64,000 bases of DNA, taken from NCBI GenBank assembly GCA_022793815.1, contig JAAWDP010000007.1:1-64000 (forward strand). Direction: 5' to 3'. A program made the translations under genes and the position numbers. Position 1 is the stretch's first letter; each line of letters opens with the position of its first letter. The notes beneath the pieces are model-generated. The model saw only the letters and a list, made by a program, of their open reading frames with translations. It was not told where the DNA came from and made no database searches. This stretch comes from Clostridia bacterium (lineage in GTDB: Bacteria > Bacillota > Clostridia > Christensenellales > Pumilibacteraceae). Positions 13,115 to 61,099 of this stretch are shown here, in pieces.

Positions 13115-13120
13115 GTTTCA

Positions 13121-13149
13121 ATTATATTCCTTTCGGTTGGAATTGTCAA
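13121..13149 (-). promoter_or_regulatory. Leaderless sigma-A promoter of the TIR-Sel1 gene
   Basis: Minus-strand TTGACA (13149-13144), 17-base spacer, TATAAT (13126-13121), then exactly six bases (TGAAAC) before ATG at 13114. With standard promoter geometry +1 is the A of ATG, so the mRNA would have no 5' leader or ribosome binding site. Confidence 0.7.
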
Positions 13150-25157: not shown

Positions 25158-26756
25158 CTATACCCAAAGCATGGTGTTGACCAAAATACCTTTGCCGCGC
25201 ACACAGAAATATACCGCCGAGGCGAACGAATGAAGCGCCCCTTCTCCCGACTTGAATTCTTCCGCGCTGAGCGTGAATTTAGTCCAGTTCCCCGAGCGTT
25301 CCATTTTTTTTCGGCAAACGTATTCCGCTTCTCCGCCGCGCTCGCGCGTGCGGACGGCAAATTCCGCTTCCTGTTCTTTTTCGCTGTAAACAATCAATTG
25401 CAGTACGCTGCTTTCGTCTGCACGGAACTGAATATCGCCGGGTTTGTACGTTGCAAGCTCGCCGCCTTCCGCACAAACGCCGAGTATATCGTATGCGCCG
25501 CTCCGCATTACTATGTCGTCGCCGCCGCCCGGCGAAACGAAATCGTCGGTACCGCTGTCGCTGTCGTAAAGCAATCTGCTTTTCACGAAATTGTCGGCGT
25601 GCACTCCCATAAGCGCAGGCGTTTTAACCAATAGCGGAGTGGAAAAAGTGAATCCGTCCTCGTAGACCACGGACGCAAAAGCATACACGGGACGCATGGT
25701 ATCGTAAACCGGCACTTTCGCTATATATTCGCCCTCGCCCGCCGACAGCAGTTTGACGTTTCTCCAATTGCGGAACTCCCCTATTTCTATGGAGTGCGCG
25801 ACGAAAAGTTCGACTTTCTCCACCGCCAAGCGCATATCGGCTTTTACGACGTAATAAAGCGACCGTTCGCTTTCCCTCGCGGTTATCTCGGGCGCGGCTA
25901 TTTCGAGAGGCAACCCCATTTTCAAATATCTGTTAAGCCATGCGCGGATACATGTCTGCTGTTTCGCAAGCACGGCGCGTCCCACTCGCTCGCCGACGGA
26001 AAGATAGTATTTATCGCCAGTTCCGGCATAAACCGCGCTCATGCGGTCGAAAAACCCGTCCGAATCGTTGCTGCACAGCACCGAAAGCATGGGAAACCGC
26101 GACAGCGACACATAACTCCCGTTATCCATGCAGGCTTTGAAACTTATTTCGTCGTCTCCTGCTTTAAGTGCGGGGTCGGTCGTAAATATCGTAATTCCGC
26201 ATTTCAAGTCCTCTATCGCCGACGCTTTTATTACCTGACTTCCGCCGGCGCCTATACCGATAAGCGCGATACTGTCGGAAAGTCTTTCGTCGCTTTGTAC
26301 TTTCGTTATCGCTCGCAAAAGCACGGTAGTCCAAATATATCTGCACGACTGTTTAGGATTGGACGGGATTAAGCTCAATGCGTCGGGATGTTTGAAATAA
26401 GCCGCTCCGTCCAGTTCTTTCGGATATATGGTGAATCGCTCTTTACCGTCGCGCTGCCCCGCATAATCCACTGCCAAAACGGCATACCCCGATTCCAGAT
26501 ACTGTTCGGCGTCGAATTTATCGATATCGTCCCCCAAATCGCACATCGCTATAATTACGGGCGGTTTTCTTTCCTTGGGAAGCCAGAGGTGCGCGAAAAT
26601 ACGGGTGACGCCGCTTGCCGTTCGCTCTCCCGAAAAATACAGCCGCTCGCTCAAAGTACCGTCTTGTCTTGTTTCGCTTGTCAAAACCGATACGTCGAGC
26701 GGCAGCGCCGTGCGGTCGTAATCGCTCCATAAACTCTGCGGACTTAAAATTTCCAT
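25158..26756 (-). CDS. Alpha/beta-hydrolase-like protein lacking the catalytic serine
   Basis: A 532-aa protein. The first ~320 residues look like an alpha/beta hydrolase of the acetyl-esterase/dienelactone-hydrolase type: a lid-to-core LWLPKERKPPVIIAM, then SGYAVLAVDYAGQRDG and an elbow SIALIGIGAGGSQV. The nucleophile elbow should be GxSxG but reads GIGAGG, so serine is replaced by alanine. The C-terminal ~200 residues are beta-rich and may be an immunoglobulin-like or carbohydrate-binding fold. No signal peptide is seen. It is either a non-catalytic binding protein or uses another residue. It is expressed from a leaderless promoter at 26763-26791. Confidence 0.55.
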   Translation of the reverse strand: MEILSPQSLWSDYDRTALPLDVSVLTSETRQDGTLSERLYFSGERTASGVTRIFAHLWLPKERKPPVIIAMCDLGDDIDKFDAEQYLESGYAVLAVDYAGQRDGKERFTIYPKELDGAAYFKHPDALSLIPSNPKQSCRYIWTTVLLRAITKVQSDERLSDSIALIGIGAGGSQVIKASAIEDLKCGITIFTTDPALKAGDDEISFKACMDNGSYVSLSRFPMLSVLCSNDSDGFFDRMSAVYAGTGDKYYLSVGERVGRAVLAKQQTCIRAWLNRYLKMGLPLEIAAPEITARESERSLYYVVKADMRLAVEKVELFVAHSIEIGEFRNWRNVKLLSAGEGEYIAKVPVYDTMRPVYAFASVVYEDGFTFSTPLLVKTPALMGVHADNFVKSRLLYDSDSGTDDFVSPGGGDDIVMRSGAYDILGVCAEGGELATYKPGDIQFRADESSVLQLIVYSEKEQEAEFAVRTRERGGEAEYVCRKKMERSGNWTKFTLSAEEFKSGEGALHSFASAVYFCVRGKGILVNTMLWV

Positions 26757-26762
26757 ATATAT

Positions 26763-26791
26763 ATTTTAATACAAACCTGCTTTTATGTCAA
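26763..26791 (-). promoter_or_regulatory. Leaderless sigma-A promoter of the hydrolase-like gene
   Basis: Minus-strand TTGACA (26791-26786), 17-base spacer, TAAAAT (26768-26763), then six bases (ATATAT) to the ATG at 26756. Confidence 0.65.
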
Positions 26792-26835: not shown

Positions 26836-26864
26836 TTGACTTTTGCGCTTATGTAATGTATACT
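26836..26864 (+). promoter_or_regulatory. Sigma-A promoter of the radical SAM gene, near-leaderless
   Basis: TTGACT (26836-26841), 17-base spacer, TATACT (26859-26864), with the ATG nine bases further on. The mRNA would carry at most about three bases before the start codon, and no ribosome site is present. The divergent hydrolase promoter is only 45 bases away. Confidence 0.65.
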
Positions 26865-26873
26865 TTTTCCGTT

Positions 26874-27740
26874 ATGGAAAACTGCACTCTTTGTCCCCGT
26901 CGGTGCGGCGCGGACAGAAACAACACGCGCGGCTACTGCGGCGCAGACAATACTTTCCGCATAGGTTTCATCGGCGCACACTTCGGCGAAGAACCGCCCG
27001 TGACGGGCAAAAAAGGCAGCGGCGCGGTGTTCTTTTCGGGCTGTCCTCTGAAATGCGTCTATTGCCAAAACGCGGACATTTCCGCAAACGGCAACGGCAG
27101 AGAGTTTACGCCGAGCGAGCTGGAGCGCCGTTTTCTCGAACTGGGAGAAAAGTGCGAAAACATAAACCTTGTGACTGCGGGGCATTATCTTAATGTACTG
27201 ATTCCCGTACTCGAAAAAGTCAAACCGAAACTGCATGTCCCCGTCGTCTATAACAGCAGCGGATATGAAACCGCAGACGCCGTAAGACACCTTGACGGAC
27301 TTGTCGACGTTTATTTGCCCGATTACAAATATTATTCGGACAAACTTGCCGAGGCTTATTCGTCCTGCCCCGATTACCGCGAAACCGCGACTGCGGCGAT
27401 AGACGAAATGGTAAGACAGCGGCCTTTTGCGGTTTTCGAAAACTCTCTGATTAAGAAAGGCGTCGTCATACGCCACTTGGTTTTGCCCGAAAGCCGTTTG
27501 GATTCGATAGCCGTCATGCGCGACATCGCATTGCGCTGGAAGGACAAAGTTCTTATCTCTCTCATGAGTCAATACACGCCTTCGTTTAACCGCTCGCAAT
27601 ACAAACAACTGTCCAGACGCATAACTTCATTCGAGTACGAAAGTGTTCTAAGCGAAGCGGTGCGGCTGGGGCTGAACGGCTTTATGCAGGAAAGAACAAG
27701 CGCGACCGACGCCCTCACGCCGATTTTCGAAACACGGTAA
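26874..27740 (+). CDS. Radical SAM protein, PflA-like
   Basis: A 288-aa protein. An N-terminal cysteine cluster (CTLCPRRCGADR...GYCGA) is followed by the radical SAM motif CPLKCVYCQN. It resembles PflA-related activases and the YgiQ/AmmeMemoRadiSam-like group that reads TxGHYL and NSSGYE (seen here as NLVTAGHYLN and VVYNSSGYE). It probably forms a 5'-deoxyadenosyl radical from SAM. No glycyl radical partner lies next to it, so the substrate is unknown. An in-frame ATG at 26805 is upstream of the promoter and is not used. Confidence 0.85.
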   Translation: MENCTLCPRRCGADRNNTRGYCGADNTFRIGFIGAHFGEEPPVTGKKGSGAVFFSGCPLKCVYCQNADISANGNGREFTPSELERRFLELGEKCENINLVTAGHYLNVLIPVLEKVKPKLHVPVVYNSSGYETADAVRHLDGLVDVYLPDYKYYSDKLAEAYSSCPDYRETATAAIDEMVRQRPFAVFENSLIKKGVVIRHLVLPESRLDSIAVMRDIALRWKDKVLISLMSQYTPSFNRSQYKQLSRRITSFEYESVLSEAVRLGLNGFMQERTSATDALTPIFETR

Positions 27741-31892: not shown

Positions 31893-32360
31893 TTACGACA
31901 ATATACTCGCTAAATTTTTGCGCATTTCACGCCTTTTGACGCCGTTTTCGAACTCGACCTTTTCTTCGTAAGTTTCCAGTCTCAGCTTGGGCACTTGCGT
32001 CGGACATTCGTTTTCGTCAAGCGCGACCACTATCACATACGCGCGGTTTATCTGTTTCCTTGTGCCGTCAAGCGCCTCTATGAAAGTATCGACTCGCACT
32101 TCCATGCTGGTTTTCCCGACATGCGTGATTTTTCCGGCAAGTATCAGTGCATCTCCCTCGTGCGCGGGCGCCTGAAATTCCAGTACGTCCACCCGAGCCG
32201 TGGTCACGTTTTTTCCGCTGTGTCTTCTCGCAACCGCTGCGGCGACAATATCTATCCACTCCATAAGTCTGCCGCCGAAGAGTCTTCTATACCCGTTGGT
32301 ATCGGCAGGCATTATTATTTGTATCTGTTCCGTATATGATTGTGCTACCGTTTTTTCCAT
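31893..32360 (-). CDS. Acyl-CoA thioesterase, hotdog fold
   Basis: A 155-aa single-hotdog thioesterase of the YciA/BACH type. MPADTNGYRRLFGGRLMEWID at residues ~18-38 carries the conserved NxxGxxFGG-like pattern with the catalytic Asp in MEWID, and FQAPAHEGDALILAGKI follows. It hydrolyses acyl-CoA to free acid and CoA; the chain-length preference is unknown. It is the first gene of a unit with the ankyrin protein and lysA and is driven by a leaderless promoter. Confidence 0.88.
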   Translation of the reverse strand: MEKTVAQSYTEQIQIIMPADTNGYRRLFGGRLMEWIDIVAAAVARRHSGKNVTTARVDVLEFQAPAHEGDALILAGKITHVGKTSMEVRVDTFIEALDGTRKQINRAYVIVVALDENECPTQVPKLRLETYEEKVEFENGVKRREMRKNLASILS

Positions 32361-32366
32361 GCTACT

Positions 32367-32395
32367 ATTTTATCACAACAACGGTCAATAGTCAA
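32367..32395 (-). promoter_or_regulatory. Leaderless sigma-A promoter of the thioesterase unit
   Basis: Minus-strand TTGACT (32395-32390), 17-base spacer, TAAAAT (32372-32367), then six bases (AGTAGC) to ATG at 32360. Confidence 0.65.
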
Positions 32396-33452: not shown

Positions 33453-34733
33453 TTATTTTCCCACGCAAAACCGCGAAAACACGGCATTTACTACGTCCGC
33501 GGTCGCAGTCGCTCCGTCCACCGAACCCAGCGCGCTAATTGCCTCCAATAAATCAACGGTAATAAGCTCGGGTTCTCTTTTTTCCCTGACGGATGACAGC
33601 GCATATTTCAATGCATCTATCGCTCTGACAAGAGATTCATACTGGCGCAGATTTGTAAGCATTACTTCTCCGCTCGTATCGGTATCCGCTTTTTCGAATA
33701 TCTTTCTCTTTAATTCTTCTATGCCCTCTTTTGTTTTTCCGCTGACATTTATTTTTTCCTCGCTTTTTAAACCGAGGTCCGCTTTCGTCTGCACTTTTAT
33801 CGCATTTTTTCTTTCGGCCATGGTTTCGTCAAGCGTAATTATCACATCGGCGCTTTTTGCCGCCGTGACGGACCTCTCTATTCCCAATCGCTCCGCTTCG
33901 CCCGATGTTTCTTTTCTTATACCGGCGGTATCCGTGACGTTGAATCTTACTCCTTCGTATATATATGATTCTTCAACAGTGTCGCGAGTGGTCCCCGCCT
34001 CGTCGGTCACTATAGCTCTGTCATAACCGACCAGCGCATTCAAAAGAGTGGATTTTCCTTCATTGGGTTTTCCTACGATAACGACGTTTACCCCGTCCTT
34101 TGCTTTTTTTCCGTTTTCGTATGTCTTTGCGAGTTTTTCTGCTTCTTCTATAATTTGCTCGCATTTTTTTCCGCACTGCTCGATAGTTTCAACTTCCAAA
34201 TCCTCTTCCGGATAATCGAGGGCTACATTCAATTCGGCGGTGATTGCTGTCGTTTTTTCCTTTAACTCCGCTATTTTTTCGGCAAGTTTTCCTCCCGCCA
34301 AATTATATGCGGCTTTAACTGCGCTTTCGCTTTGGGCATCTATCAAGTCTATTATACCTTCCGCTTCGGTAAGACCTAATTTATTGTTTTCGAGTGCTCT
34401 TCTCGTGAATTCTCCCTTTTCCGCCTGTCTTGCTCCAATCTTGATAAAAGCGCGTATTATGTTTTCCACAATCACGGGCGAACCGTGACAGAAAATTTCC
34501 ACTACATTTTCACCCGTATAACTGGCAGGAGCAAAATATACCACTGCCACTACGTCGTCTTTTACAGTGTCTGTATCAATCACACCGTAAAGTGCTTTCC
34601 TGTCTTCCGTTTTGTTTTTTGTTTTAAATAATTGTCCTAGCATTTCCACGCTTTCTTCACCGGAAAGCCTTATTACCGAAATAGCACCTCTTCCGTGAGC
34701 GCTGGAAAGAGCGATTATTGTTTTTTCTTTCAT
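33453..34733 (-). CDS. mnmE: tRNA modification GTPase
   Basis: A 426-aa enzyme that with MnmG makes the cmnm5 group on U34 of certain tRNAs. The N-terminal folate-binding domain has AHGRGAISVIRLSG. The inserted G domain has GKPNEGKSTLLNAL (P-loop), DEAGTTRD and DTAGIR. The C-terminus ends FSRFCVGK with the catalytic cysteine. Slightly shorter than the usual ~455. mnmG, normally next to it, is not in the window. It overlaps the upstream membrane protein gene by four bases (ATGA). Confidence 0.95.
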   Translation of the reverse strand: MKEKTIIALSSAHGRGAISVIRLSGEESVEMLGQLFKTKNKTEDRKALYGVIDTDTVKDDVVAVVYFAPASYTGENVVEIFCHGSPVIVENIIRAFIKIGARQAEKGEFTRRALENNKLGLTEAEGIIDLIDAQSESAVKAAYNLAGGKLAEKIAELKEKTTAITAELNVALDYPEEDLEVETIEQCGKKCEQIIEEAEKLAKTYENGKKAKDGVNVVIVGKPNEGKSTLLNALVGYDRAIVTDEAGTTRDTVEESYIYEGVRFNVTDTAGIRKETSGEAERLGIERSVTAAKSADVIITLDETMAERKNAIKVQTKADLGLKSEEKINVSGKTKEGIEELKRKIFEKADTDTSGEVMLTNLRQYESLVRAIDALKYALSSVREKREPELITVDLLEAISALGSVDGATATADVVNAVFSRFCVGK

Positions 34734-35296
34734 ATTTCGTTCACTCCTTCTTCCGTCTCTTTTTCTTCTGTCTTTGTTTTTACTGCGATAACTTTCATAT
34801 AAAAATACGAATTTAAAAATTCTATAATGGCTGCTATAATCAGCGTTCCGAAAAATGCAGCAATTCCGCTTACCGAATCGTTTTTTATTTTATAACAAAT
34901 ATTTATTACTCCCAAAACCGCGATTGCCGGTAAAATGAGTTTATATAAACCTTTCATCGCACTTAACATTAAATACTTTATTTCTTTCTTTCCTAATTTT
35001 TTTTCTTCTGTCTTATGCTTGCTCATAATATATGCTTCGGTAAACTTTTTTCTTTTATAATTTCGCGTCAATATTCTTATTGCAACAGCCGCTGCCGACA
35101 TTACCGCAGCTATCGGAAGCGTTAAATAAAGTTCCGTTCTTTTAAGTACGTTTGCGCCTCCGAGCGCCGCTGTCAGCGCAGCCGAAATTATAAATCCGAT
35201 ATCGCAAATAAAACATACGAGGGTTAAAGTTATTGCTTTTCCTTTCATCCTCGCTTTTGCCGTTTCTTTTATAACGTCCTCTTTTTTCTGACTCAT
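34730..35296 (-). CDS. Four-helix membrane protein of unknown function
   Basis: A 188-aa protein with about four hydrophobic segments (residues ~22-45, ~55-75, ~108-130, ~140-165) and charged Lys/Glu termini. I recognise no family. It is the first gene of the mnmE-smpB operon, directly next to the predicted origin, in the position where rnpA-yidC-jag usually precede mnmE; it does not look like YidC. It is transcribed from a leaderless promoter. Confidence 0.75.
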   Translation of the reverse strand: MSQKKEDVIKETAKARMKGKAITLTLVCFICDIGFIISAALTAALGGANVLKRTELYLTLPIAAVMSAAAVAIRILTRNYKRKKFTEAYIMSKHKTEEKKLGKKEIKYLMLSAMKGLYKLILPAIAVLGVINICYKIKNDSVSGIAAFFGTLIIAAIIEFLNSYFYMKVIAVKTKTEEKETEEGVNEI

Positions 35297-35302
35297 TTCA
35301 TT

Positions 35303-35331
35303 ATTATATATCTTTTGTTTTTATTTGTCAA
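35303..35331 (-). promoter_or_regulatory. Leaderless sigma-A promoter of the mnmE operon
   Basis: Minus-strand TTGACA (35331-35326), 17-base spacer, TATAAT (35308-35303), then six bases (AATGAA) to ATG at 35296. Confidence 0.75.
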
Positions 35332-35343
35332 TGCACTTTCTTT

Positions 35344-35690
35344 TTTATCCACTTTTATTTAATAGTTGATTTATCCACATTGTGGATAAATCGGTGGATA
35401 ACTTTGTTTGCAGTTATAATTCATTATTTTTTTGCTTTTTTTCTTACCTAAAACATTATTTAATTATTTATATTGTGGAAAACCTTTTTCTGATTGTTTA
35501 AAGAAAACTTATTCTTGTCCACATTGAAATAGTATTATTTATTATTATATATGAATTTTAAATACAATATCTTGCGGTCTGTTTTACTTGTACACAATTG
35601 TGAACAGACTAATATAAATAATACTATTAAATTAAATATTAAATTAAATATTAAATAATCCTTAACTTATAAAACAAAATTTTCATTTTA
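35344..35690. other. Candidate chromosomal replication origin (oriC)
   Basis: A 430-base gene-free gap between divergent genes. It has perfect DnaA boxes TTATCCACA (35371-35379) and TGTGGATAA (35381-35389), and near matches at 35345 (TTATCCACT), 35393 (GGTGGATAA), 35474 (TGTGGAAAA), 35515 (TTGTCCACA) and 35588 (TTGTACACA). To the right lies a very AT-rich stretch (35610-35660) with tandem copies of AAATTAAATATT, suitable as an unwinding element. Nearby are mnmE, rsmG and parB, classic origin neighbours, and gene orientation flips here. dnaA is not in the window. Confidence 0.65.
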
Positions 35691-35691
35691 C

Positions 35692-35720
35692 TTGACAACT
35701 TGCTTTGTTAAATTTATAAT
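35692..35720 (+). promoter_or_regulatory. Leaderless sigma-A promoter of rsmG
   Basis: TTGACA (35692-35697), 17-base spacer, TATAAT (35715-35720), then six bases (TTCATT) to ATG at 35727. A consensus promoter with transcription predicted to start on the A of ATG. Confidence 0.8.
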
Positions 35721-35726
35721 TTCATT

Positions 35727-36401
35727 ATGATAACATTGGAAGAAAAGTTTTATAAAAGTCTCGACGGCGAAAAAAAATTTCTTTTCGAAAAATATGTCGA
35801 TTTACTGATACGGTGGAACGAAAAATTCAATTTGACCGCTATTACCGAGCCGAGTGAAATAAACGTCAAACATTTCGCCGATTCGATTGCAGCCGTCGAT
35901 TATTGCAATGGAAGTTTATTGGATATAGGTGCGGGAGCGGGATTTCCTTCGGTGCCGTTGAAGATAATAAAACCGTCGCTTAATGTAACGATGGCGGACA
36001 GTTTGAATAAGAGAGTAAATTTTTTGAACGAAGTAATAAAAGAACTTAAACTGGAAAGAACAGCGGCGGTTCATATAAGAGCGGAAGAGATAAAGGAAAG
36101 GGAAAAGTACGATACGGTAGTGGCAAGGGCGGTTGCACCGCTTTCTACGTTGGCGGAATATATGTTGCCGTTTGTTAAAGTCGGAGGAAAAGCAATTGCA
36201 TATAAAAGCAGCGATGTCGAAAATGAACTGAAACAAGCGGAAAAAGCAATAGAAGTTTTGGGTGGTGAGAAAGCGCAAATAATAAAAATGAAATTGACTG
36301 ATGAAATAGAAAGAAGTATAGTAATAATAACAAAGAAAAAAAACACTCCTTCCAAGTATCCGAGAGCGGGAAACAAGCCGAGAACCAATCCGATTAAATA
36401 A
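35727..36401 (+). CDS. rsmG: 16S rRNA (guanine527-N7)-methyltransferase
   Basis: A 224-aa SAM-dependent methyltransferase that modifies G527 of 16S rRNA. LIRWNEKFNLTAI at residues ~28-40, the SAM motif LLDIGAGAGFPSVPLKI and VVARAVAPLSTLAEY are typical. The C-terminus has a basic tail (KKKNTPSKYPRAGNKPRTNP), as is common in this family. It faces the predicted origin on its left. mnmG and soj/parA, its usual neighbours, are absent. Confidence 0.95.
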   Translation: MITLEEKFYKSLDGEKKFLFEKYVDLLIRWNEKFNLTAITEPSEINVKHFADSIAAVDYCNGSLLDIGAGAGFPSVPLKIIKPSLNVTMADSLNKRVNFLNEVIKELKLERTAAVHIRAEEIKEREKYDTVVARAVAPLSTLAEYMLPFVKVGGKAIAYKSSDVENELKQAEKAIEVLGGEKAQIIKMKLTDEIERSIVIITKKKNTPSKYPRAGNKPRTNPIK

Positions 36402-36412
36402 AAACGATTAAA

Positions 36413-36446
36413 AAAAGCGAAAAACAAGAAAGTTTTCGCTTTTTTC
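36413..36446. terminator. Bidirectional terminator between rsmG and the CDF gene
   Basis: Hairpin AAAAAAGCGAAAA/TTTTCGCTTTTTT with A/T runs on both sides, serving convergent genes. Confidence 0.75.
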
Positions 36447-36460
36447 ATAAGAATCCAGTT

Positions 36461-37435
36461 TTATTTGTCTTTATTTTCCACAGGACGCGGATTTGTATGA
36501 ACGGTGCAATGTTTTACGAGAGGAAAACGGTATTCTATTTCGTCGTGAACTTTATCCGCTATGCCGTGTGCTTCATATAAAGACAAGTCTCCGTCTGCCG
36601 AGATTTCGACGTCGACGTAAATGCGGTCGCCGAATTTTCTTGTTCTTACGGAATCGATACCGAGAACGCCGTCTATGGAAATAATAAGTTCCTTTATCTT
36701 TCTTTCCGTGGATTTATCGCATGCCATATCGGTCATTTTATCGATGCTTTCTTTGAATACGGAAACTGCGGCTTTTATAATCAAAATTCCTATAATAATT
36801 GCCGCTATCGAATCCATTATCGGATATCCGAGCATTGCGCAGAGAATGCCTATAAAACTTCCCACGCTGGATAAAGCGTCGGAACGGTGATGCCATGCGT
36901 CTGCTTTCAAAGCACCCGAATTTATCTTTTTTGCGCAAGCGGAAGTTATCCAAAACATCGCTTCTTTGACCGCAACCGAAACGATTGCCGCAGACAATGC
37001 AAGAGGAGTGGGAACGGCAAGTTCTTTATATGAACCGTCGACAATATTTTCGACTCCTTTTATTCCAATCAAAGAACCTGTGACACCGAGCATGATTGCA
37101 AGAAGTATGGCGGCAACGCACTCGAAACGCTCGTGACCGTAAGGGTGATTTCTGTCGGCTTTCCTGGATGCGATTTTGACGCCGACAATAACAATGAGTG
37201 TGGAAAAAACATCGGATGCCGAGTGGATTGCATCGGAAATCATGGCAAATGAATTGCCTAAAATACCGGCAATCAATTTAAAAGCCGTGAGAGCGGCGTT
37301 TACCAAAATACTTATTATGCAAACTTTCATTGCAACGGAAGCATAATTGTTTCTGTGTTTTTCTTCGCGCTCTGAATTTTTATTGTCGTCTGTTTCGAAT
37401 AATTCCGTATTGTCCGAAAGATTCTTTTTTTTCAT
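36461..37435 (-). CDS. Cation diffusion facilitator transporter
   Basis: A 324-aa membrane protein with six predicted helices, then a cytoplasmic metal-binding domain. The transport-site motifs HSASD (helix 2) and HHRSD (helix 5) match the H/DxxxD pairs of CDF proteins that export Zn, Mn, Fe or Co in exchange for protons. The C-terminal domain has VDVEISADGDLSLYEAHGIAD. The ATG has AGAGGA upstream. Its promoter is not obvious; transcription may come from the upstream small-RNA promoter through its terminator. Confidence 0.9.
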   Translation of the reverse strand: MKKKNLSDNTELFETDDNKNSEREEKHRNNYASVAMKVCIISILVNAALTAFKLIAGILGNSFAMISDAIHSASDVFSTLIVIVGVKIASRKADRNHPYGHERFECVAAILLAIMLGVTGSLIGIKGVENIVDGSYKELAVPTPLALSAAIVSVAVKEAMFWITSACAKKINSGALKADAWHHRSDALSSVGSFIGILCAMLGYPIMDSIAAIIIGILIIKAAVSVFKESIDKMTDMACDKSTERKIKELIISIDGVLGIDSVRTRKFGDRIYVDVEISADGDLSLYEAHGIADKVHDEIEYRFPLVKHCTVHTNPRPVENKDK

Positions 37436-37504
37436 AAAATCCTCTGCCGTAAGTAAAATTCGGTTTATTTTATATTAAGTAGTTAAGTGATTTAATGATA
37501 CGGA

Positions 37505-37619
37505 AAAAAATAAAAAACTTCCGCAGGGCACATTTTATGCGTCCCGCGGAAAGAAATTTTTTTTATCCGCTGCCTCGTAAAGAAGCCCGACCTTTTCGGT
37601 CTGTTCGATATTTCGGTGT
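37505..37619 (-). ncRNA. Putative ~115-nt small RNA (or regulated leader) ending in a strong terminator
   Basis: A consensus promoter starts a minus-strand transcript at about 37619 that has no open frame. Proceeding 5' to 3' it contains hairpin GACC-GAAAA-GGTC, hairpin GCTTC-TTTAC-GAGGC, the string GCAGCGGA, and then a terminator stem TCCGCGGGACGC/GTGCCCTGCGGA followed by a T-rich run near 37518-37505. GCAGCGGA can also pair with the TCCGC at the base of the terminator, so an antiterminated form could exist. The CDF transporter gene begins about 70 bases downstream. It could therefore be a stand-alone sRNA or a metal- or ligand-responsive leader. It matches no RNA family I know (SRP RNA, 6S, NiCo and yybP-ykoY considered). 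Confidence 0.5.
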
Positions 37620-37625
37620 CTGTTT

Positions 37626-37654
37626 ATTATAAAGGAAATAAAAAAATATGTCAA
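37626..37654 (-). promoter_or_regulatory. Consensus sigma-A promoter of the putative small RNA
   Basis: Minus-strand TTGACA (37654-37649, overlapping the fprA stop codon), 17-base spacer, TATAAT (37631-37626). It matches both hexamers perfectly. Confidence 0.75.
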
Positions 37655-38841
37655 GAGAAATCAGACGCAATGGCTGCTGCGAGATTTTCTATTTGTTTGA
37701 TGCAGTTTTCGTCGCAAGAGGATTTTACGGTAACCGTCGGCAATGAAAAATCCGCTTTCATATCCGCCAGAAAATCTTTCATATTTTTTGCGGCAGTCGG
37801 CGCCCAGGTGCCGTTTTCAATAAAGCCGATTCTTCGACCGATAACTGCGGACTTTTTCAGATGGGATAAAAACTGTTCTATTTTAGGGAACATGTTTCCA
37901 TAGTATGTGGGAGATGCTATCACAATGTTTTTATATTCGAAACAGTCGGATATTATATAACTTATATCCGTATAAGAAACATCGACCGTTTTGTTGGGAA
38001 TATTTTTTTCGCAAAGTAGTGCCGACAGTAAATCCGCAGCATACTTTGTGTTTTTATACATAGTGGCATAAACGATGAGTACGCCGTTGTTTTCCGGTGT
38101 ATATGAACTCCATTTCGAATATTTGCTTATGGCAAAATCACAGTCTTTGTCGAATATGATTCCGTGAAGAGGGAGTATTTTTTCGATTTTGAGTTTGGCC
38201 GCTTTGTTGAGCAAAGCAGTGACGTTGTTTCCGAATCGTCCCACTATATTGGAATAATATCTGCGGGCTTCGTCCGTCCAGGAATCGCGGTTTTTTGATG
38301 AAGAAAAGAGCAAACTTCCCTGCTCCGAACCGAATGAACCGAAAGCATCCGCACTGAAAAGAGAGTGGGTTGCACTTTCATAGGAAACGATGACTTCGGG
38401 CCAATGAACCATGGGAGCGGCAATAAAAGAGAGTGAGTGTTTACCGAGAGACAAGGTATCCCCTTCTTTTACTGTTTTGGTTCTGTCGGTGAAATCCTTT
38501 CCCGAAAATTGATTTATAAATTTCAATGCAGTCGGCGAAGTGACCAAAGTTGCGGTTTTGTAAATATCGAGAACCGAGCTTATCAAAGCGCTGTGGTCGG
38601 GTTCTGCATGATGCACTATCAAATAGTCGAGCGGCTTACCTTTGAGAGTGTCTTTTATATTTTGCAGAAATTCATCACGGACCGCTTCGTCCGCCGTATC
38701 AAGCAGCGCGGTTTTTTCGTCGTCTATCAAATAAGAGTTATATCTCATTCCGCTCGGAATAGGAAAAAGATTTTCGAAGAGAGTTTTACTCTTATCGCAG
38801 GCTCCGACGTAATAAATGCTGTCAAAAATTCTTCTTTTCAT
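37651..38841 (-). CDS. FprA-type flavodiiron protein
   Basis: A 396-aa cytoplasmic enzyme that reduces O2 (or NO) to water in anaerobes. The N-terminal metallo-beta-lactamase domain has HHAEPDHSAL (HxExDH diiron ligands at residues ~75-84) and HWPE. The C-terminal flavodoxin domain has LIVYATMYKNTKYAADLL and NVVIASPTYYGNMFP-like sequence. ATG 38841 has GAGGAA upstream; the longer frame to 38877 starts before the predicted transcript. No rubredoxin domain is attached. Confidence 0.9.
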   Translation of the reverse strand: MKRRIFDSIYYVGACDKSKTLFENLFPIPSGMRYNSYLIDDEKTALLDTADEAVRDEFLQNIKDTLKGKPLDYLIVHHAEPDHSALISSVLDIYKTATLVTSPTALKFINQFSGKDFTDRTKTVKEGDTLSLGKHSLSFIAAPMVHWPEVIVSYESATHSLFSADAFGSFGSEQGSLLFSSSKNRDSWTDEARRYYSNIVGRFGNNVTALLNKAAKLKIEKILPLHGIIFDKDCDFAISKYSKWSSYTPENNGVLIVYATMYKNTKYAADLLSALLCEKNIPNKTVDVSYTDISYIISDCFEYKNIVIASPTYYGNMFPKIEQFLSHLKKSAVIGRRIGFIENGTWAPTAAKNMKDFLADMKADFSLPTVTVKSSCDENCIKQIENLAAAIASDFS

Positions 38842-38875
38842 AATTGTAATTCCTCTGAATATTTTCGTCGGATTC

Positions 38876-38905
38876 ATTATAATATATTCCGCATGGCTCT
38901 GTCAA
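38876..38905 (-). promoter_or_regulatory. Sigma-A promoter of fprA
   Basis: Minus-strand TTGACA (38905-38900), 18-base spacer, TATAAT (38881-38876), giving a leader of about 28 bases. The remaining gap up to the tRNA genes (38906-39185) shows only a weak hairpin at 39078-39102. Confidence 0.7.
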
Positions 38906-39185
38906 CAAAGAAAATCATCGAAAATTATTGACGCGGAAAAAAACTACGATAAGAAAAAATCGGATTTTCATGAATGATTTGTATAAAATTGCAAATATTA
39001 AATAATTATCTATAAAAATACAATAAACTTCAATAAAGAGGAAAATTAGGGATAAGATGATGTCCTAATAGAAAAACAGCCGTAAAACATAAGAATACGG
39101 CGGAAAAGAAGAGAAATTTTAAAAAATCACTGTAATGTTATTAAAACATACAAAAAAACGCTTGCCGTTATGACAAACGTTGTCT

Positions 39186-39262
39186 TGGTCGAGGTGACAA
39201 GACTTGAACTTGCGACCTCTGCGTCCCGAACGCAGCGCTCTACCAAACTGAGCCACACCTCG
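39186..39262 (-). tRNA. tRNA-Pro (anticodon CGG)
   Basis: A 77-nt cloverleaf on the minus strand. The acceptor CGAGGTG pairs with CACCTCG, followed by A73 and an encoded CCA. The anticodon stem CTGCG/CGCAG encloses the loop TTCGGGA, giving CGG and G37, and the T arm reads GTTCAAGTC. It reads CCG proline codons. Confidence 0.92.
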
Positions 39263-39347
39263 TTAAAAACGGAAAAAGACCGATTTCGGTTCAAAGCCTG
39301 TATTCCGATAAAATTAACCGTTGCCTTTGGCAAGCGGTCTTAAAAAA

Positions 39348-39424
39348 TGGTCGAGGTGACAAGATTTGAACTTGCGACCCCTGCGTCCCTAACACAGTGC
39401 TCTACCAAACTGAGCCACACCTCG
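39348..39424 (-). tRNA. tRNA-Pro (anticodon AGG)
   Basis: A 77-nt near-copy of the neighbouring tRNA-Pro with the same acceptor and encoded CCA. The anticodon stem is CTGTG/CGCAG (one T-G wobble) and the loop TTAGGGA gives anticodon AGG. Most bacteria read CCU/CCC with GGG or UGG tRNAs, so an A34 proline tRNA is unusual and may need conversion to inosine or read CCU only. Confidence 0.88.
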
Positions 39425-39613
39425 ACATGCTTTAAGATTATATAATAAAAAATAGAATTTGTCAATGAAATAAATACGTATTTGGTATTTTGGGATGCTT
39501 ATTTTTCAGCGTATCGCGTATTTATTAAAATTTAATATGATTTTAATGAAAACAATGTGAGTTTTTAATATTCTGAATTTATAATCAACGTATCATTTGA
39601 TTTAGGAGGATTT

Positions 39614-39916
39614 ATGAAAAAAGAACTTGATAAAGGCATGGCTGCGCTTGTGCTTGCAGGACTTGCCGTGGTATGGCTTATTTATCTGTTGGTCGCAGAG
39701 TTCAGTCCGGGGCTTACATTCGGCGTGGGAATAGCAAAGACGGTCATTTTGTGCCTGACTTATCTGGTGCTGCTGTATAATGCATGGGGTTGGAGCGATA
39801 AGTTGATTTTCCGTATTTTGTTCCTTATTACAACGGCATTTCTCATATTTTGCGCCATCGCGCCCTATATCCCCGGTATCGATATGGGAAACTTACCGCT
39901 CATCGGTTTGAAATAG
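39614..39916 (+). CDS. Small three-helix membrane protein
   Basis: A 100-aa protein with three hydrophobic segments (residues ~10-30, ~36-56, ~64-86) and short polar ends. It has no recognised domain. GGAGGA precedes the ATG. It stands alone between the tRNA genes and parB with its own terminator. Amphipathic or antiporter-partner roles are possible, but there is no evidence for either. Confidence 0.75.
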   Translation: MKKELDKGMAALVLAGLAVVWLIYLLVAEFSPGLTFGVGIAKTVILCLTYLVLLYNAWGWSDKLIFRILFLITTAFLIFCAIAPYIPGIDMGNLPLIGLK

Positions 39917-39930
39917 TCCTTTAAATAAAA

Positions 39931-39958
39931 AAACCTTGCTTTACGGCAAGGTTTTTTT
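39931..39958 (+). terminator. Intrinsic terminator of the small membrane protein gene
   Basis: Hairpin AAACCTTGC-TTTAC-GGCAAGGTTT followed by seven T. Confidence 0.85.
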
Positions 39959-40108
39959 ATTTACCGAAACATTTATATATTAAAAGCGATAATTTATTTT
40001 AATAATTCGCTTTTATATTTTAATATATTGTTTGACCTTTTGAATAGAATATAGTATAATAATGTATATATAAGATATTAAATTATGTTTTCATAAAGGA
40101 GTAACGAT

Positions 40109-41032
40109 ATGCCAATAAAAAAGGGATTAGGTAAAGGTTTGAGCGCGCTTTTATCGGGTTCAGAAGAAGAGTACGGCGGTTCTTTTAAAGATGAGCCGAT
40201 TGAAGATAAAAGTGAAGCGGCAAACGGTTCGTCCGTAGAAATTGCACTTAATTTAATTGACCCGAACGTCAATCAGCCGCGTAAAGTGTTCGATGAATTG
40301 GCTATGGGCGAATTGGTAAACAGTATAAGAATACACGGAGTGATTTCCCCCATTATTCTTGTACGAACCGGCGAAAGGTATATGATTATTGCGGGTGAGC
40401 GTCGTTATCGTGCGAGCAAGAAAGCCGGACTAAAAACTATACCTGCTATTATCAGAGATTACACGCCGCAGCAAGTCAAAGAAATATCTCTTATAGAGAA
40501 CTTACAGCGTGAGGACCTTAATCCGATAGAAACCGCAAATGCAATCAAGCAGCTTATGGACGAGTATAATTATACGCAGGAAGAAGTTGCAGACCGTATC
40601 GGAAAGAGCCGACCGGCGATAGCAAACACGTTGCGATTGCTGGCATTGTCCGAGCCCGTTATACATCTTATCGAGCAAGGTAAGCTCTCCGCAGGGCATG
40701 CAAGATGCTTGGTTGTGGTGGAAGACGAGCAAGCCCAGCTGATGCTGGCAAAGAACGGCATAGATAATAAAGTGACCGTAAGAGATTTTGAGAAGATGGT
40801 TAAAAACTATCTTTCACCGAAGCCGCAGAAAAAACCGCAAGAACAAAGTCTGGAACTTAAAGATTTGGTTTCCAGAATGCAAAGAGTTTTTGCGACAAAA
40901 GTAACGGCGCTCGGTAACGACGGAAAGGGACGCATATATATTGACTACTATTCGCGTGACGATTTGGATAGAATCGTCGAGATAGTGGAAACTGTCCAAA
41001 AAGCCCAGATGCAAGCAAGAGAATCGGAATAA
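40109..41032 (+). CDS. parB: Chromosome-partitioning protein ParB
   Basis: A 307-aa protein. It begins KKGLGKGLSALLSG as typical chromosomal ParB. The CTP-binding/ParB motif lies in MIIAGERRYRASKKAGL with the partner motif ISLIENLQREDLNPIE, followed by the helix-turn-helix (YTQEEVADRIGKSRPAIAN) that reads parS, and a C-terminal dimer domain. It loads on parS and slides as a CTP clamp. No parA (soj) gene is adjacent. parS-like sites start 50 bases downstream. AAAGGAG precedes the ATG. Confidence 0.95.
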   Translation: MPIKKGLGKGLSALLSGSEEEYGGSFKDEPIEDKSEAANGSSVEIALNLIDPNVNQPRKVFDELAMGELVNSIRIHGVISPIILVRTGERYMIIAGERRYRASKKAGLKTIPAIIRDYTPQQVKEISLIENLQREDLNPIETANAIKQLMDEYNYTQEEVADRIGKSRPAIANTLRLLALSEPVIHLIEQGKLSAGHARCLVVVEDEQAQLMLAKNGIDNKVTVRDFEKMVKNYLSPKPQKKPQEQSLELKDLVSRMQRVFATKVTALGNDGKGRIYIDYYSRDDLDRIVEIVETVQKAQMQARESE

Positions 41033-41051
41033 AAAGCAAATATCAAAGAAA

Positions 41052-41082
41052 AGACCGCGACAAAAAATGTCGCGGTCTTTTC
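41052..41082 (+). terminator. Intrinsic terminator of parB
   Basis: Hairpin AAGACCGCGACA/TGTCGCGGTCTT followed by TTT. Confidence 0.85.
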
Positions 41083-41098
41083 TGTTTCACATGAAACA
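41083..41098 (+). promoter_or_regulatory. parS site 1
   Basis: TGTTTCACATGAAACA differs from the consensus ParB site TGTTTCACGTGAAACA at one base. It lies immediately after the parB terminator. Confidence 0.8.
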
Positions 41099-41186
41099 AA
41101 ATAAACATTTAAAGATGCTTAAAATGCAAAAACAGGCTTTGCGCCACCCTTTAAAATGAAGAAGTCGGGTAAATTATCTGTCGAAA

Positions 41187-41202
41187 AGTTTCATGTGAAA
41201 CA
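41187..41202 (+). promoter_or_regulatory. parS site 2
   Basis: AGTTTCATGTGAAACA differs from the parS consensus at two bases. It is nearly the reverse complement of site 1. Confidence 0.7.
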
Positions 41203-41321
41203 AGATTAAAGCGGTCTATGTGCGTGCTAGGCATTTATATAAATATATATATTTAAAATTGATTTTAAGTAGATAAAAGATTATAGGCAGTGAAAAAATG
41301 TGTTAAATATGGACGAACAAT

Positions 41322-41337
41322 TGTTTCTTGTGGAACT
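41322..41337 (+). promoter_or_regulatory. parS-like degenerate site 3
   Basis: TGTTTCTTGTGGAACT has four mismatches to parS but shares TGTTTC-TGTGGAAC with site 4. ParB binding is doubtful. Confidence 0.35.
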
Positions 41338-41585
41338 TGAATTCATTCATGTGATAAACCATATATCAATTCGTAATATTATATATTCGAAGGGGTCTTA
41401 AATGATAATGCTTGAAAAATATTAACTATTAGTCCGCAACATAAATACAGCGAAACGATTAGGCGGTATAAATCGATATAATAAACCTAAAAATAGAGAG
41501 TGTGAAAAAGTAACATAATATAAGGGAAAGAATTAAGCAATTGGAGTGTATCGAATTTAAAAGTAACTATTTAAAATAAAAATAA

Positions 41586-41601
41586 TGTTTCGTGTGGAAC
41601 A
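41586..41601 (+). promoter_or_regulatory. parS-like degenerate site 4
   Basis: TGTTTCGTGTGGAACA has three mismatches to the parS consensus. It keeps the outer half-site bases TGTTTC and AACA. Confidence 0.4.
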
Positions 41602-42993
41602 AAGCATATTATCCCAAGTATCAAAAGACGTTTAATAAAAAATATATCATAAGGTAAATATAACCTCGACATAGAAAATATAAGATAATTTAAGCGTAGC
41701 AGACCGCGAGCTGCTCTGTTTAAAATAAAAGCAAAAAATACAAAAATATATGGAATTAGCAATTAAAAGAGAAAATATTATAAAATTATTCTCCAATATA
41801 ATAACAGTCCCGAGGCAAAAAAATATCAAAATTATGATTTAATAATCATATATTTAAGAGGGTATCTTTTATTGAGCGTTTTAAAAGCCCAACGGCGTCA
41901 ATTATTATTAAAACATAATTATTATAAAATTATGCGGCAAGCGTGTATAAGATGCCGGCAATTTTCCGATAAGTCAATCGATGTTAAAATCCGAAGGAAG
42001 GCTTTATCCGAAAAAGGCACAGCAATCGGCATTCGCGACTGCATTTATCTTTGTGTAGAAAGTTTTGTGAGTGACACTTGTTATAAACGGGGACACTGCT
42101 GTCATCTGATAAACAAGCCAAGCGGAATCAATGTGAAAAGGCGTTTATTGTAATCGATGTTCCTGTTAGGGATAACATCAGGCTTTCCGGCGAGGCGGCT
42201 GTCATGAACGGTAAACATAATTCGGAGATTGAGAACTGCGGAGGAGCAGAAAAAGCCACACTTATACCAAACGTGACCGAAAAATCGGGATAAAAGTAAA
42301 AAAGAGACGAAAAGCGATAAAAGTCAAGAAAAATTCGCTACTCACGCAGAATGTCCCCTGTTTTTTCTCGGGCAAAATTTTGTTGATTCTGCATAATGTT
42401 ATTATTTCATAAATTTTATTTTCGGAATCGGTAAATACAAAACGTGTGAACGCGGCATTGTCATTCAATTGGCTCGCAAATATCGTCTTCGACGACTCGG
42501 GATTCTTTGGTTTCAAAACCGAAGCAAATATAGAATTTTATAAAAAGTATTCGGAAAAATGGCGGAAAGAGGTGAAAATGTGATAATATCGTTATGTTTT
42601 AATAACTTTGCGCTTAATAAAGATTAAAACGGCAATAAAAAGCAGGACTTTAAATAAATTTGGTGTAATATTGATAAACCATGCAAAAAAGTACAAATAC
42701 CGCATGTAAAAATCGGATATCTCTCAGAGCGCAAAAAAATTCTCGTACTTTTTTCCGACCTCTTACGTAAAAAATACCATATATTTCTTATTCCCCGAAA
42801 AAATCGAGTTAAGGCGAAAATTAACCTGTAAAATCTGAAGGCAAAAAAATCGGCGAAAAAATCTTAAAAAAACGACCGAATTAAACACAAAATTAAAAAC
42901 AAAAAATTTATTGTTTAATTATATTATTAAAAAGAGAAATATTTGCATATAAGTTTTAACAATAAAAACAAAAAATTCATTTTTTAATTTGCG

Positions 42994-43029
42994 ATTTAGA
43001 TTTTAACTTGAATTTAGATTTTAACTTGA
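42994..43029 (+). repeat. 18-bp tandem repeat, two copies
   Basis: Two perfect adjacent copies of ATTTAGATTTTAACTTGA, about 50 bases upstream of the promoter at 43078-43106. Confidence 0.8.
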
Positions 43030-43077
43030 TATGATGGGGTTTTGTTGGCGATTTGTATGAGAGAGCGTAGAGGGAAT

Positions 43078-43106
43078 TTGACTTTTGCCGAGAAAAGGTG
43101 TAAAAT
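43078..43106 (+). promoter_or_regulatory. Sigma-A promoter of the CMD/aldo-keto reductase unit
   Basis: TTGACT (43078-43083), 17-base spacer, TAAAAT (43101-43106), 45 bases before the start codon. Confidence 0.65.
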
Positions 43107-43150
43107 ATTAAAAAAATAGCATAGGGCAGTAATTGCAAGGAGAGTGAAAT

Positions 43151-43909
43151 ATGGCGGCAAGCGAAAAAGCAAAAGCTTACAACAAGAAAATGTTTCCGTA
43201 CAGAGAAACGCTTTTTAAACAAACCGACCCTGAATTTATAGAGAGGTTCGATAATTTTGCTTTCGACGATGTAATAAGCACCGTCGATTTGGATGACATA
43301 AGCCGGTTTCATGCGATAATAGCGTCGCTTATAGGTGTAGGCGGAGTGGATGAATACAGAATGATGATAGCCGCGGCCATGAGATTCGGAGTGACTCCCG
43401 CCGAAATAAAAGAAATAGCCTATCAGTCGGTGGCATATATAGGGATAGGACGGGCGTATCCGTTTTTGCACGCAACAAACGAAGTTTTTGTGGAAAACGG
43501 TATCGAAATGCCGCTTGCGTCCGCTCAAACCACTACCGACGAAAACCGCAGAGAAAAGGGAGAACAGGCTCAAATCGAAATATTCGGCGAACAGATGCGC
43601 GGATATGCCGAGTCCGGCGATAAAGACACCGTGCATATAAGGCGGTGGCTGGCAGAAAATTGTTTCGGCGATTATTATACGCGCAAAGTATTGGATTATA
43701 AAAAACGCGAAATGATTACATTCTGTTTTCTTGCGGCACAGGGCGGTTGCGAACCGCAGTTGATTTCGCACATAAAAGCGAATTTGCGCCTCGGAAACGA
43801 CCGTGAGTATTTAATTAAAATAGCGTCGCAAATACTGCCGTATATCGGCTATCCGAGAGCATTGAACGCGCTTGCGTGTATCGAAGAAACGACGGTAAAA
43901 CAGCGGTAA
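43151..43909 (+). CDS. Carboxymuconolactone decarboxylase (CMD) family protein
   Basis: A 252-aa helical protein with two CMD/AhpD-like segments. One centres on ARISRFHAIIASLIGVGGVDEYR-like sequence (about residues 55-100) and the other on KRREMITFCFLAAQGGCEPQ (about 185-215). The family includes peroxidase-like and decarboxylase proteins; the CxxC of AhpD is absent in the first copy, so peroxidase activity is unlikely there. AAGGAG precedes the ATG. It is followed after 45 bases by an aldo/keto reductase, probably in one operon. Confidence 0.8.
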   Translation: MAASEKAKAYNKKMFPYRETLFKQTDPEFIERFDNFAFDDVISTVDLDDISRFHAIIASLIGVGGVDEYRMMIAAAMRFGVTPAEIKEIAYQSVAYIGIGRAYPFLHATNEVFVENGIEMPLASAQTTTDENRREKGEQAQIEIFGEQMRGYAESGDKDTVHIRRWLAENCFGDYYTRKVLDYKKREMITFCFLAAQGGCEPQLISHIKANLRLGNDREYLIKIASQILPYIGYPRALNALACIEETTVKQR

Positions 43910-43954
43910 GGCAACCCGTAAAAATACGGGAATAAGGCAAAAAAGAGGGTCGAA

Positions 43955-45097
43955 ATGAAGGGCAAAACGGCATTTTCGGAAGTGAAAAAGAATTTCGGGT
44001 TCGGTTGTATGCGGCTTCCCATGAACGGCGGCGAAGTCGATTATGCGCAGACCTGCCGCATGGCGGATATGTTTCTCGACGAGGGATTCAACTATTTCGA
44101 TACCGCGCACGGCTACATAGAGGAGAAAAGCGAAATCGCCGTCCGCGAATGTCTTGTAAAAAGGTATCCGCGGGAAAAGTTTGTTTTGGCAAATAAACTT
44201 TCGGGGTCGTATTTCGACACTAACGGGCAAATCCGTCCGCTTTTCGAAAAACAATTGGCTGCTTGCGGTGTGGATTATTTCGATTTTTACCTCATGCATG
44301 CGCAAACGGCTGCGCTATTTGAAAAGTTCAGGCGCTGTAATGCTTATGAAACTGCTTTTCGTTTGAAAGAAGAGGGAAAAGTCGGGCATGTCGGACTGTC
44401 GTTTCATGACCGCGCGGAAGTGCTTGACGAAATTTTAACCGAATATTCCGACATCGAATTTGTGCAGATACAGTTTAATTATGCGGATTTCGACGATGCA
44501 TGCATACAGAGCGGAAAATGCTATGACGTTTGCCGCAAGCACGGCAAACCCATTATTGTTATGGAGCCGGTTAAAGGAGGAACGCTTGTAAATCTGCCCG
44601 AACGCGCGGCACGGATTTTGTCAAAGAACACAAGCCAAAGCAGCGCGGCTTTTGCCATTCGTTATGCGGCAAGTTTCGACGGAATATTCATGGTGCTGTC
44701 GGGAATGAGCAATACGGAGCAAATGAAAGACAATTTATCCGCCATGAAAGATTTCGAAAAGATGAGCGCAGCGGAATTCGAAACCGTTTCTCAAATCAAA
44801 CAAATATTGAAAGAGCGCGACATTATATCGTGTACGGCGTGCCGCTATTGTACGGACGGATGTCCGAAAAAAATATCCATACCCGATTTGTTTTCGTGCA
44901 TGAATGCGAAAAAGCAATTCAACGATTGGAACAGCGCGTATTATTACGGAGTTTTTACGAAAAACGGAGGAAAGGCATCCGATTGTATCGCTTGCGGCAA
45001 ATGCGAAAGCGCTTGTCCGCAGCATTTGCCGATTCGCGGTTTGCTTAAAAGCGTAGCCGAGCAGTTTGACTGCGGCGAACCCGAAACGGGCGACTGA
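43955..45097 (+). CDS. Aldo/keto reductase with C-terminal 4Fe-4S domain
   Basis: A 380-aa enzyme. The N-terminal ~280 residues form the AKR barrel: GFGCMRLPM, the Asp/Tyr pair in FDTAHGYIEE, the Lys in ANKL and the His in LMHAQT. The C-terminal ~90 residues carry two 4Fe-4S motifs, CTACRYCTDGCP and CIACGKCESACP. Such ferredoxin-linked AKRs are common in Clostridia; the substrate is unknown. The upstream CMD gene is probably co-transcribed. Confidence 0.9.
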   Translation: MKGKTAFSEVKKNFGFGCMRLPMNGGEVDYAQTCRMADMFLDEGFNYFDTAHGYIEEKSEIAVRECLVKRYPREKFVLANKLSGSYFDTNGQIRPLFEKQLAACGVDYFDFYLMHAQTAALFEKFRRCNAYETAFRLKEEGKVGHVGLSFHDRAEVLDEILTEYSDIEFVQIQFNYADFDDACIQSGKCYDVCRKHGKPIIVMEPVKGGTLVNLPERAARILSKNTSQSSAAFAIRYAASFDGIFMVLSGMSNTEQMKDNLSAMKDFEKMSAAEFETVSQIKQILKERDIISCTACRYCTDGCPKKISIPDLFSCMNAKKQFNDWNSAYYYGVFTKNGGKASDCIACGKCESACPQHLPIRGLLKSVAEQFDCGEPETGD

Positions 45098-45153
45098 TAG
45101 GCTCGGGCTTTAACAGACATACTATACCGAGAGAAAATGCGGAGTGTAATAAA

Positions 45154-45873
45154 GTGGAAAATGTAAGAATAGCCGTTGTCGATGACGAAAAAGCCGACTC
45201 CGATTTGATTTCGGGATATATCAGCCGATATGCTCGGGAAAAAGGCGAAGATTTTTTCGTGGCGCAATATTTCACCGCCGCCACCGCCGCGGTCAACTGC
45301 CGCAACGGATACGATATTATTTTTATGGATGTCGAATTGCCCGACGGAAACGGAATAGACGTAATAAAAAAAATACGGGAAAAGAACAAGGACGTTATTG
45401 TCGTTTTTGTTACGAATATGGCGCAGTTCGCCGTGCGCGGATATGAAGTGCGTGCATTGGACTATGTGGTAAAGCCCGTGTCGTATTTCAATTTTGCCGC
45501 AAAATTCACGGAGGCTTTGGAAACTTTCCGAATGCGCAGCGACGAATATATCTGGATTTCCAACAAAGATGGGAAAATAAGACTGAGCGCGGCGAGTATT
45601 GTTTACGTGGAAGTTTTTCAGCACATGTTGGTATACCATACCACGGAAGGGGATTACAAGGCAAGCGGTTCGCTTCTCAGCGCGCAGGAAGCGCTGAAAA
45701 ACAGGAGTTTTTCGCCGTGCAACAGATGTTATCTCGTCAATTTGAGATACGTCACGAAGGTACAGGGCTTGACTGCTACGGTCGGAGGGAAACAGCTTCA
45801 GATTTCCACCCGAAGCCGCAGCTCCTTCATGAGGGATTTAAACGACTATCTTGCCGGCGGTGGGGGGGGATAA
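45154..45873 (+). CDS. LytTR-family response regulator
   Basis: A 239-aa cytoplasmic regulator. The receiver domain (about 1-120) has VDDEKAD, phospho-acceptor Asp in IFMDVELPDGNG and Lys in VVKPVSY. The LytTR DNA-binding domain (about 140-235) has IWISNKDGKIRLSAASIVYVE and NRCYLVNLRYV. The C-terminus is encoded by a G8 tract and overlaps the ribosome site of the kinase gene that follows. The likely targets are the genes immediately downstream. Confidence 0.92.
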   Translation: MENVRIAVVDDEKADSDLISGYISRYAREKGEDFFVAQYFTAATAAVNCRNGYDIIFMDVELPDGNGIDVIKKIREKNKDVIVVFVTNMAQFAVRGYEVRALDYVVKPVSYFNFAAKFTEALETFRMRSDEYIWISNKDGKIRLSAASIVYVEVFQHMLVYHTTEGDYKASGSLLSAQEALKNRSFSPCNRCYLVNLRYVTKVQGLTATVGGKQLQISTRSRSSFMRDLNDYLAGGGGG

Positions 45874-45874
45874 C

Positions 45875-55697: not shown

Positions 55698-55726
55698 TTG
55701 ACAGAAAACGTGCGCTGTGTTACAAT
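55698..55726 (+). promoter_or_regulatory. Sigma-A promoter of the RAYT gene
   Basis: TTGACA (55698-55703), 17-base spacer, TACAAT (55721-55726). The predicted start near 55733 lies after an ATG at 55729, supporting the later ATG at 55756. Confidence 0.65.
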
Positions 55727-55755
55727 AAATGAAAAGGTTTTACCGAGGTGAAGAA

Positions 55756-61037: not shown

Positions 61038-61099
61038 TTTCTTGCTTCCTCCGAAAAGTAATGACGCCGAAAAACGGTTATTTCGCGCGTCATGTGAAT

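Follow-up and report, generated by a model that had tools for sequence, protein, structure and literature searches.

Introduction

It is well established that Actinobacteria, Deinococcus-Thermus and archaea have leaderless genes, as described in the part of PMC3160421 drawn on here. In the same part, they are predicted for 56 of 209 Firmicutes genomes with a mean of 4.2%. In the portion of PMC7438776 used here, more than 1000 starts were mapped in Clostridioides difficile, and only 15 genes were potentially leaderless. According to an excerpt of PMC9581028, in which the GeneMarkS-2 result is quoted, leaderless transcription was predicted in 21.6% of bacterial species (representative genomes).

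Here we describe leaderless-type genes in the order Christensenellales. The window is the whole analysed stretch of 64,000 nucleotides, positions 1 to 64,000 of contig JAAWDP010000007.1, from a Clostridia bacterium of the family Pumilibacteraceae. It is part of a 1.71-Mb assembly that is 98% complete (G000, hereafter the window genome). As in Actinobacteria and Deinococcus-Thermus, TANNNT lies just before the start codon (relevant part of PMC3160421; a mycobacterial study is PMC4633059), a Shine-Dalgarno site is lacking and leadered genes occur alongside (same part of PMC3160421). Compared with the ~20–40% of genes given there for these two phyla, the share is estimated to be 5% here. In contrast to both phyla, the promoters have a full -35 box together with TATAAT, only ATG is used as start codon, and bS21 is kept. 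The share is similar to that of the Firmicutes predictions, but those are concentrated in Lactobacillales and Mycoplasma, as far as the part of PMC3160421 used here extends. The lineage shares with C. difficile the sigma-70-type promoters and the dominance of Shine-Dalgarno initiation (PMC7438776, in part), and with the GeneMarkS-2 genomes the coexistence of leaderless genes with leadered ones in the same genome (PMC9581028, in part). A literature search for leaderless together with Christensenellales gave no match. Since such genes are known elsewhere, in Actinobacteria, Deinococcus-Thermus, archaea and some Firmicutes, the present lineage is a further instance of a known phenomenon. We estimate a probability of about 85% for the main reading, in which these genes are of leaderless type and form a second initiation mode confined to one clade of the order, most simply with a single origin on the clade stem.

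Promoters and start sites in the window

A preliminary description of the window named five genes that begin with TTGACA-N17-TATAAT-N6-ATG. The spacing of 17 and 6 bases is present at all five starts, and the exact consensus at three of them (13114, 35296 and 35727, with zero mismatches). It does not hold at 26756, where TTGACA is followed by TAAAAT, or at 32360, where the boxes are TTGACT and TAAAAT. The rsmG promoter and start occupy 35692–35729 on the plus strand, with the -35 box at 35692–35697, the -10 box at 35715–35720 and the ATG at 35727. The gene itself (35727–36401, plus strand), which is of leaderless type, encodes a 224-aa 16S rRNA methyltransferase G that carries the Pfam GidB domain (PF02527). 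The mnmE operon promoter and start lie at 35294–35331 on the minus strand and lead into a first ORF (34730–35296) and then mnmE (33453–34733), which contains the Pfam MnmE domains. No Pfam match was found for this first ORF of 188 aa, nor was it called by the gene finder used here; its coding status is based on the 4-base overlap with mnmE. Two further minus-strand starts, both of which are in-frame entries in the distance test below, belong to a TIR-Sel1 gene assigned by Pfam (10550–13114; promoter and start 13112–13149) and to a gene of 532 aa (25158–26756; promoter and start 26754–26791), for whose protein no Pfam family was found. The fifth belongs to a 4HBT thioesterase gene, also assigned by Pfam (31893–32360; promoter and start 32358–32395, minus strand).

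A sixth start had been placed nine bases from its -10 box, and this is confirmed by TTGACT-N17-TATACT-N9-ATG at 26836–26876 on the plus strand, in front of a radical SAM gene (26874–27740; Pfam). The description also held that usable ribosome sites are lacking, and none of the six starts has one at normal spacing; an AAGGA lies 13 bases from the 13114 start, within the promoter spacer.

The frame behind a seventh motif match (61091–61128, minus strand, ATG at 61093) is only 51 codons long and overlaps a gene that has a GGAGG site of its own; the match is probably not a gene start. The motif by itself is therefore no proof of a gene start. Elsewhere in the window, the gene at 55698–56514, which has a weak IS200-like transposase match (under the Pfam cut-off), has an ATG two bases past TTGACA-N17-TACAAT, too near by standard geometry for a start there.

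Distance from the -10 box to ATG

The distance from promoter to ATG was analyzed in a 464-kb sample that includes the window and contains 384 genes from a small dicodon gene finder. ATGs near gene starts were sorted by reading frame, with a TANNNT -10 box (at least 5/6), a -35 box (at least 4/6) and a spacer of 16–18. The in-frame counts at distances 3 to 9 are 1, 0, 0, 13, 3, 1 and 5, and the out-of-frame counts at distance six are 2 and 0 (frame test, p = 3e-5; peak test, p = 1e-10). Counts are elevated at nine as well, with five ATGs in frame versus one and one out of frame. The peak at six persists under weaker -35 filters, in a less sharp form, and the frame test becomes weaker when the -35 filter is dropped (15 versus 7 in two frames). 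No peak appears for GTG starts (2 in frame, 3 out of frame) or TTG starts (1 in frame, 3 out of frame). Across the whole 1.71 Mb, TTGACA-N17-TANNNT-N6-ATG is found nine times and the reversed pattern zero times; the 61093 match is among the nine. When any distance from 2 to 32 is allowed, 81 places are obtained, nine of them at six and five each at 2, 8 and 9. The preliminary description had judged the exact spacing unlikely to arise by chance and had named a sharp peak at six bases as supporting evidence; the frame test and the reversed-pattern count agree with the former, and the sharp in-frame peak, absent out of frame, with the latter.

The same peak recurs in three more genomes of the clade. 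At distance six, G018 (same family) has 8 ATGs in frame versus 1 and 1, G293 (another family) 7 versus 0 and 0, and G065 (another family, 35% GC) 9 versus 2 and 0. It is absent from G076, an outgroup of the same class and another order (0 in frame versus 1 and 1). G047, which belongs to the same order, shows no clear peak (2 versus 0 and 0, p = 0.1; its stretches were partly picked at known promoters). A second mode at distance four was considered for G047 and rejected. Six promoters were viewed, five at four and one at three, and one ATG among them shares the frame of the gene that follows, while the rest are mostly chance ATGs.

By standard promoter geometry, six bases between the -10 box and ATG place +1 at the A of ATG. 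The same geometry reasoning is applied in the part of PMC3160421 used here. On this basis, the sigma-70-type promoter would direct RNA polymerase, which normally initiates some seven bases past the -10 box, to the A of the ATG or to a position one to three bases ahead of it. The resulting message, having no Shine-Dalgarno site, would be started by the ribosome at its 5´-terminal AUG, and the most likely initiating particle would be a 70S ribosome with initiator tRNA. A variant of this scheme is that transcription generally begins at a variable position one to three bases before ATG, which yields very short leaders. It gains some weight from the raised counts at distances 7 to 9, which are 3, 1 and 5 in the window genome and 3, 2 and 2 in G018. 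However, the mode is six, which by standard geometry corresponds to the A of ATG, and we consider very short leaders unlikely as the general arrangement.

Two start modes in one genome

Strong Shine-Dalgarno sites of at least five bases, at suitable positions, precede 86 of the 159 first-in-unit genes and 80 of the 145 operon-internal genes in the window genome, versus ~5% in out-of-frame controls. A genome-wide switch away from Shine-Dalgarno initiation, which would leave few genes with ribosome sites, is thus not what is found. The 16S rRNA with its anti-Shine-Dalgarno end was not found in the assembly. Leaderless geometry, defined here as a distance of 5–9 and a -35 box of at least 3/6, is present at 20/159 first genes (about 12%; control 2.5%) and at 4/145 internal genes (control 0.3%). 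Scaling up the sample and subtracting the background gives an estimate of ~70 leaderless-type genes in the genome, about 5%. Leaderless-type starts are therefore a minority mode, restricted to ATG, beside the dominant Shine-Dalgarno mode.

Three of the 20 first genes combine the geometry with a ribosome site near the candidate start, as would be expected if upstream promoters also produced leadered messages and the leaderless message were one form among others. That the distance-six promoters are near consensus speaks against such dual promoters, which we regard as rather improbable. The other 17 have no Shine-Dalgarno site of at least five bases at any nearby start. This bears on the possibility that translation really begins at a later codon, behind a normal ribosome site, and not at this ATG. 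Such a reading holds for the 61093 match in the window and for the chance ATGs in G047; against it stand both these 17 genes and the restriction of the enrichment to the coding frame, and as a general account it is very unlikely.

Conservation of the spacing at rsmG

A search of 61 relatives recovered rsmG in 54. At 29 loci of the window's own family, the upstream region has a distance of six in 11 cases and seven or eight in 2; the other 16 show none of these distances, and a few of them carry a ribosome site. The family matches in G007, G016, G028 and G036 are outside this count. The hexamer between the -10 box and ATG varies among species and the surrounding sequence has turned over, while the orthologues compared share about 50% identity. 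The spacing has been kept across orthologues of ~50% identity, which supports the view that it is selected. The preliminary description had suggested that leaderless initiation is a normal, selected mode of this lineage; the second adjective is supported by rsmG, and the first has to be qualified, as the mode is a minority one.

In other families of the clade, rsmG has distance six in G044, G055 and G293 and distance nine in G050, and the geometry is absent at rsmG in G038, G041, G043, G045, G052, G054, G056 and G060. No rsmG with the geometry was found in ten families outside the clade. Two other gene types are of leaderless type in more than one genome: SpoU-type methylase genes in both the window genome and G293, and genes with a DNA polymerase III delta domain in the window genome (distance nine) and G018 (distance six).

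Distribution within the order

A class survey of 291 genomes compared TTGACA-N17-TANNNT with ATG at six and at the control distances 10–14, with the reading frame ignored. In the class outside the order (277 genomes), 854 matches at six versus 4126 over the five control distances give a ratio of 1.03, so six is as common there as the mean control distance. In the order (121 genomes), 489 versus 1180 give a ratio of 2.07, again with the reading frame ignored. The whole pattern could be ascribed to AT-rich -10-like words that lie beside start codons in a compact genome and were picked by eye, for which the modest unfiltered whole-genome peak might be cited, but the in-frame peak, the frame and peak tests in four genomes and the lack of excess at six in the class-wide control refute this reading, which retains almost no probability.

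By family, 13 families of the order have ratios of 2.4–10 and the remaining 20 are at 1.75 or less. An RpoB tree was built from 34 genomes, four of them outgroups from the class and the other 30 from 29 families of the order; G351, G350 and G058 (RpoB absent or in fragments) and family f7 (51% complete) are absent from it. A branch with 100/100 support separates the 13 high-ratio families, represented by 14 rows, together with families f9, f20 and f21 from 13 order families, whose ratio never exceeds 1.67, and the outgroups. The ratio cut of 2.3 used for the tree label was chosen after the data had been seen. If f9, f20 and f21 are scored strictly as lacking the trait, the label takes three changes on the tree. 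Signals in these three families may be weak or diluted; rsmG has distance six in G044 (f9) and in G055 (f20, with a weak -35 box). A single gain on the clade stem is the simplest reading of the tree. On the leaderless side of the branch, hand-added counts are 391 versus 640 for 16 families (ratio 3.05, frame ignored); for the remaining 17 order families, 4 of them outside the tree, they are 98 versus 540 (ratio 0.91). The trait marks one clade inside the order, and so clean a boundary is less usual than leaderless genes themselves.

As a rule, leaderless initiation arose too long ago for its origin to be studied. Here, presence and absence are adjacent in families of one order in which Shine-Dalgarno initiation is intact, and gains, losses and changes of the machinery can therefore be compared directly. 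In genomes of the clade, starts may be misplaced by gene callers that depend on ribosome sites. Leaderless messages also respond differently to some antibiotics, as stated in the part of PMC9581028 used here.

Translation machinery and gene classes

Loss of bS21 was rejected as a cause of the trait, with PF01165 present in 33/34 genomes on both sides of the branch (the one miss is G056, family f21). Loss of S1 was likewise rejected, as rpsA-type matches occur in 34/34 genomes, none of them above the model cut-off. The S1-domain protein scores 127–253 bits against the rpsA model in the clade and 285–338 in other families of the order. Its identity was compared in 20 of the 34 genomes (14 in the clade and 6 outside; sequences L213–L232) for pairs with 66–71% RpoB identity, a band set after the data had been seen. 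Within this band, S1 identity is 48.6% for pairs from the clade, 50.5% for pairs from outside it and 38.5% for mixed pairs, and the RsmG control gives 40.9, 41.6 and 39.1. The S1-domain protein thus changed strongly on the branch of the trait, by more than either RpoB or RsmG. Its link to the trait is a lead only, because it concerns one branch and one control protein. In the review table of PMC9031893, used in part, S1 and S2 are required for leadered messages and mildly inhibitory for leaderless ones; the same part of this review states that the ribosomes of low-GC Gram-positives, Bacillus among them, lack bS1. In G065, a genome of 0.9 Mb, the S1-type match (C6:31309-32292) contains one in-frame TAA, and the protein is possibly broken or shortened.

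RNA-modification enzymes make up 8 of the 37 distance-six leaderless genes in four genomes versus 0 of 30 random genes. The class was first noticed in the window genome (5/13); the later three genomes contribute 0/8, 2/7 and 1/9, and their sum of 3/24 versus 0/30 is weak by itself. The enzymes are RsmG, a SpoU type, TsaE, TilS and RsmF in the window genome, and RsmG and a SpoU type in G293; none is found among the 8 genes of G018. G065 has a member of the PF03602 family, which we take to be RsmD. MnmG is of leaderless type at distance nine. The loci, that of MnmG included, are 35727 in the window, L039, L040, L049, L054, L178, L205 and L057:4974-6827. These leads could be combined into one scenario, in which dual-mode initiation arose once on the clade stem, a remodelled S1-domain protein rendered initiation at a 5´-AUG efficient and rRNA and tRNA modification enzymes preferentially moved to the leaderless mode. 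We offer this combination as speculation and doubt that it is correct in all its parts.

Putative replication origin

Six TTATCCACA-like words (at most one mismatch) lie within 180 bases at 35345–35523 of the window, in the interval 35297–35726 between the divergent leaderless genes of the mnmE operon and rsmG. The GC-skew minimum of the window, at about 34–36 kb, coincides with these words, and judging from its sequence 35297–35726 is probably a replication origin. The region 34000–46000 is markedly AT-rich, with 37–43% GC versus about 49% elsewhere. A group of four perfect TTATCCACA boxes, all on the same strand, is found within 61 bases at 59972–60032, between convergent hsdS-like and YitT-like genes and ~24.5 kb from the putative origin, and these boxes could form a DnaA-binding or titration site.
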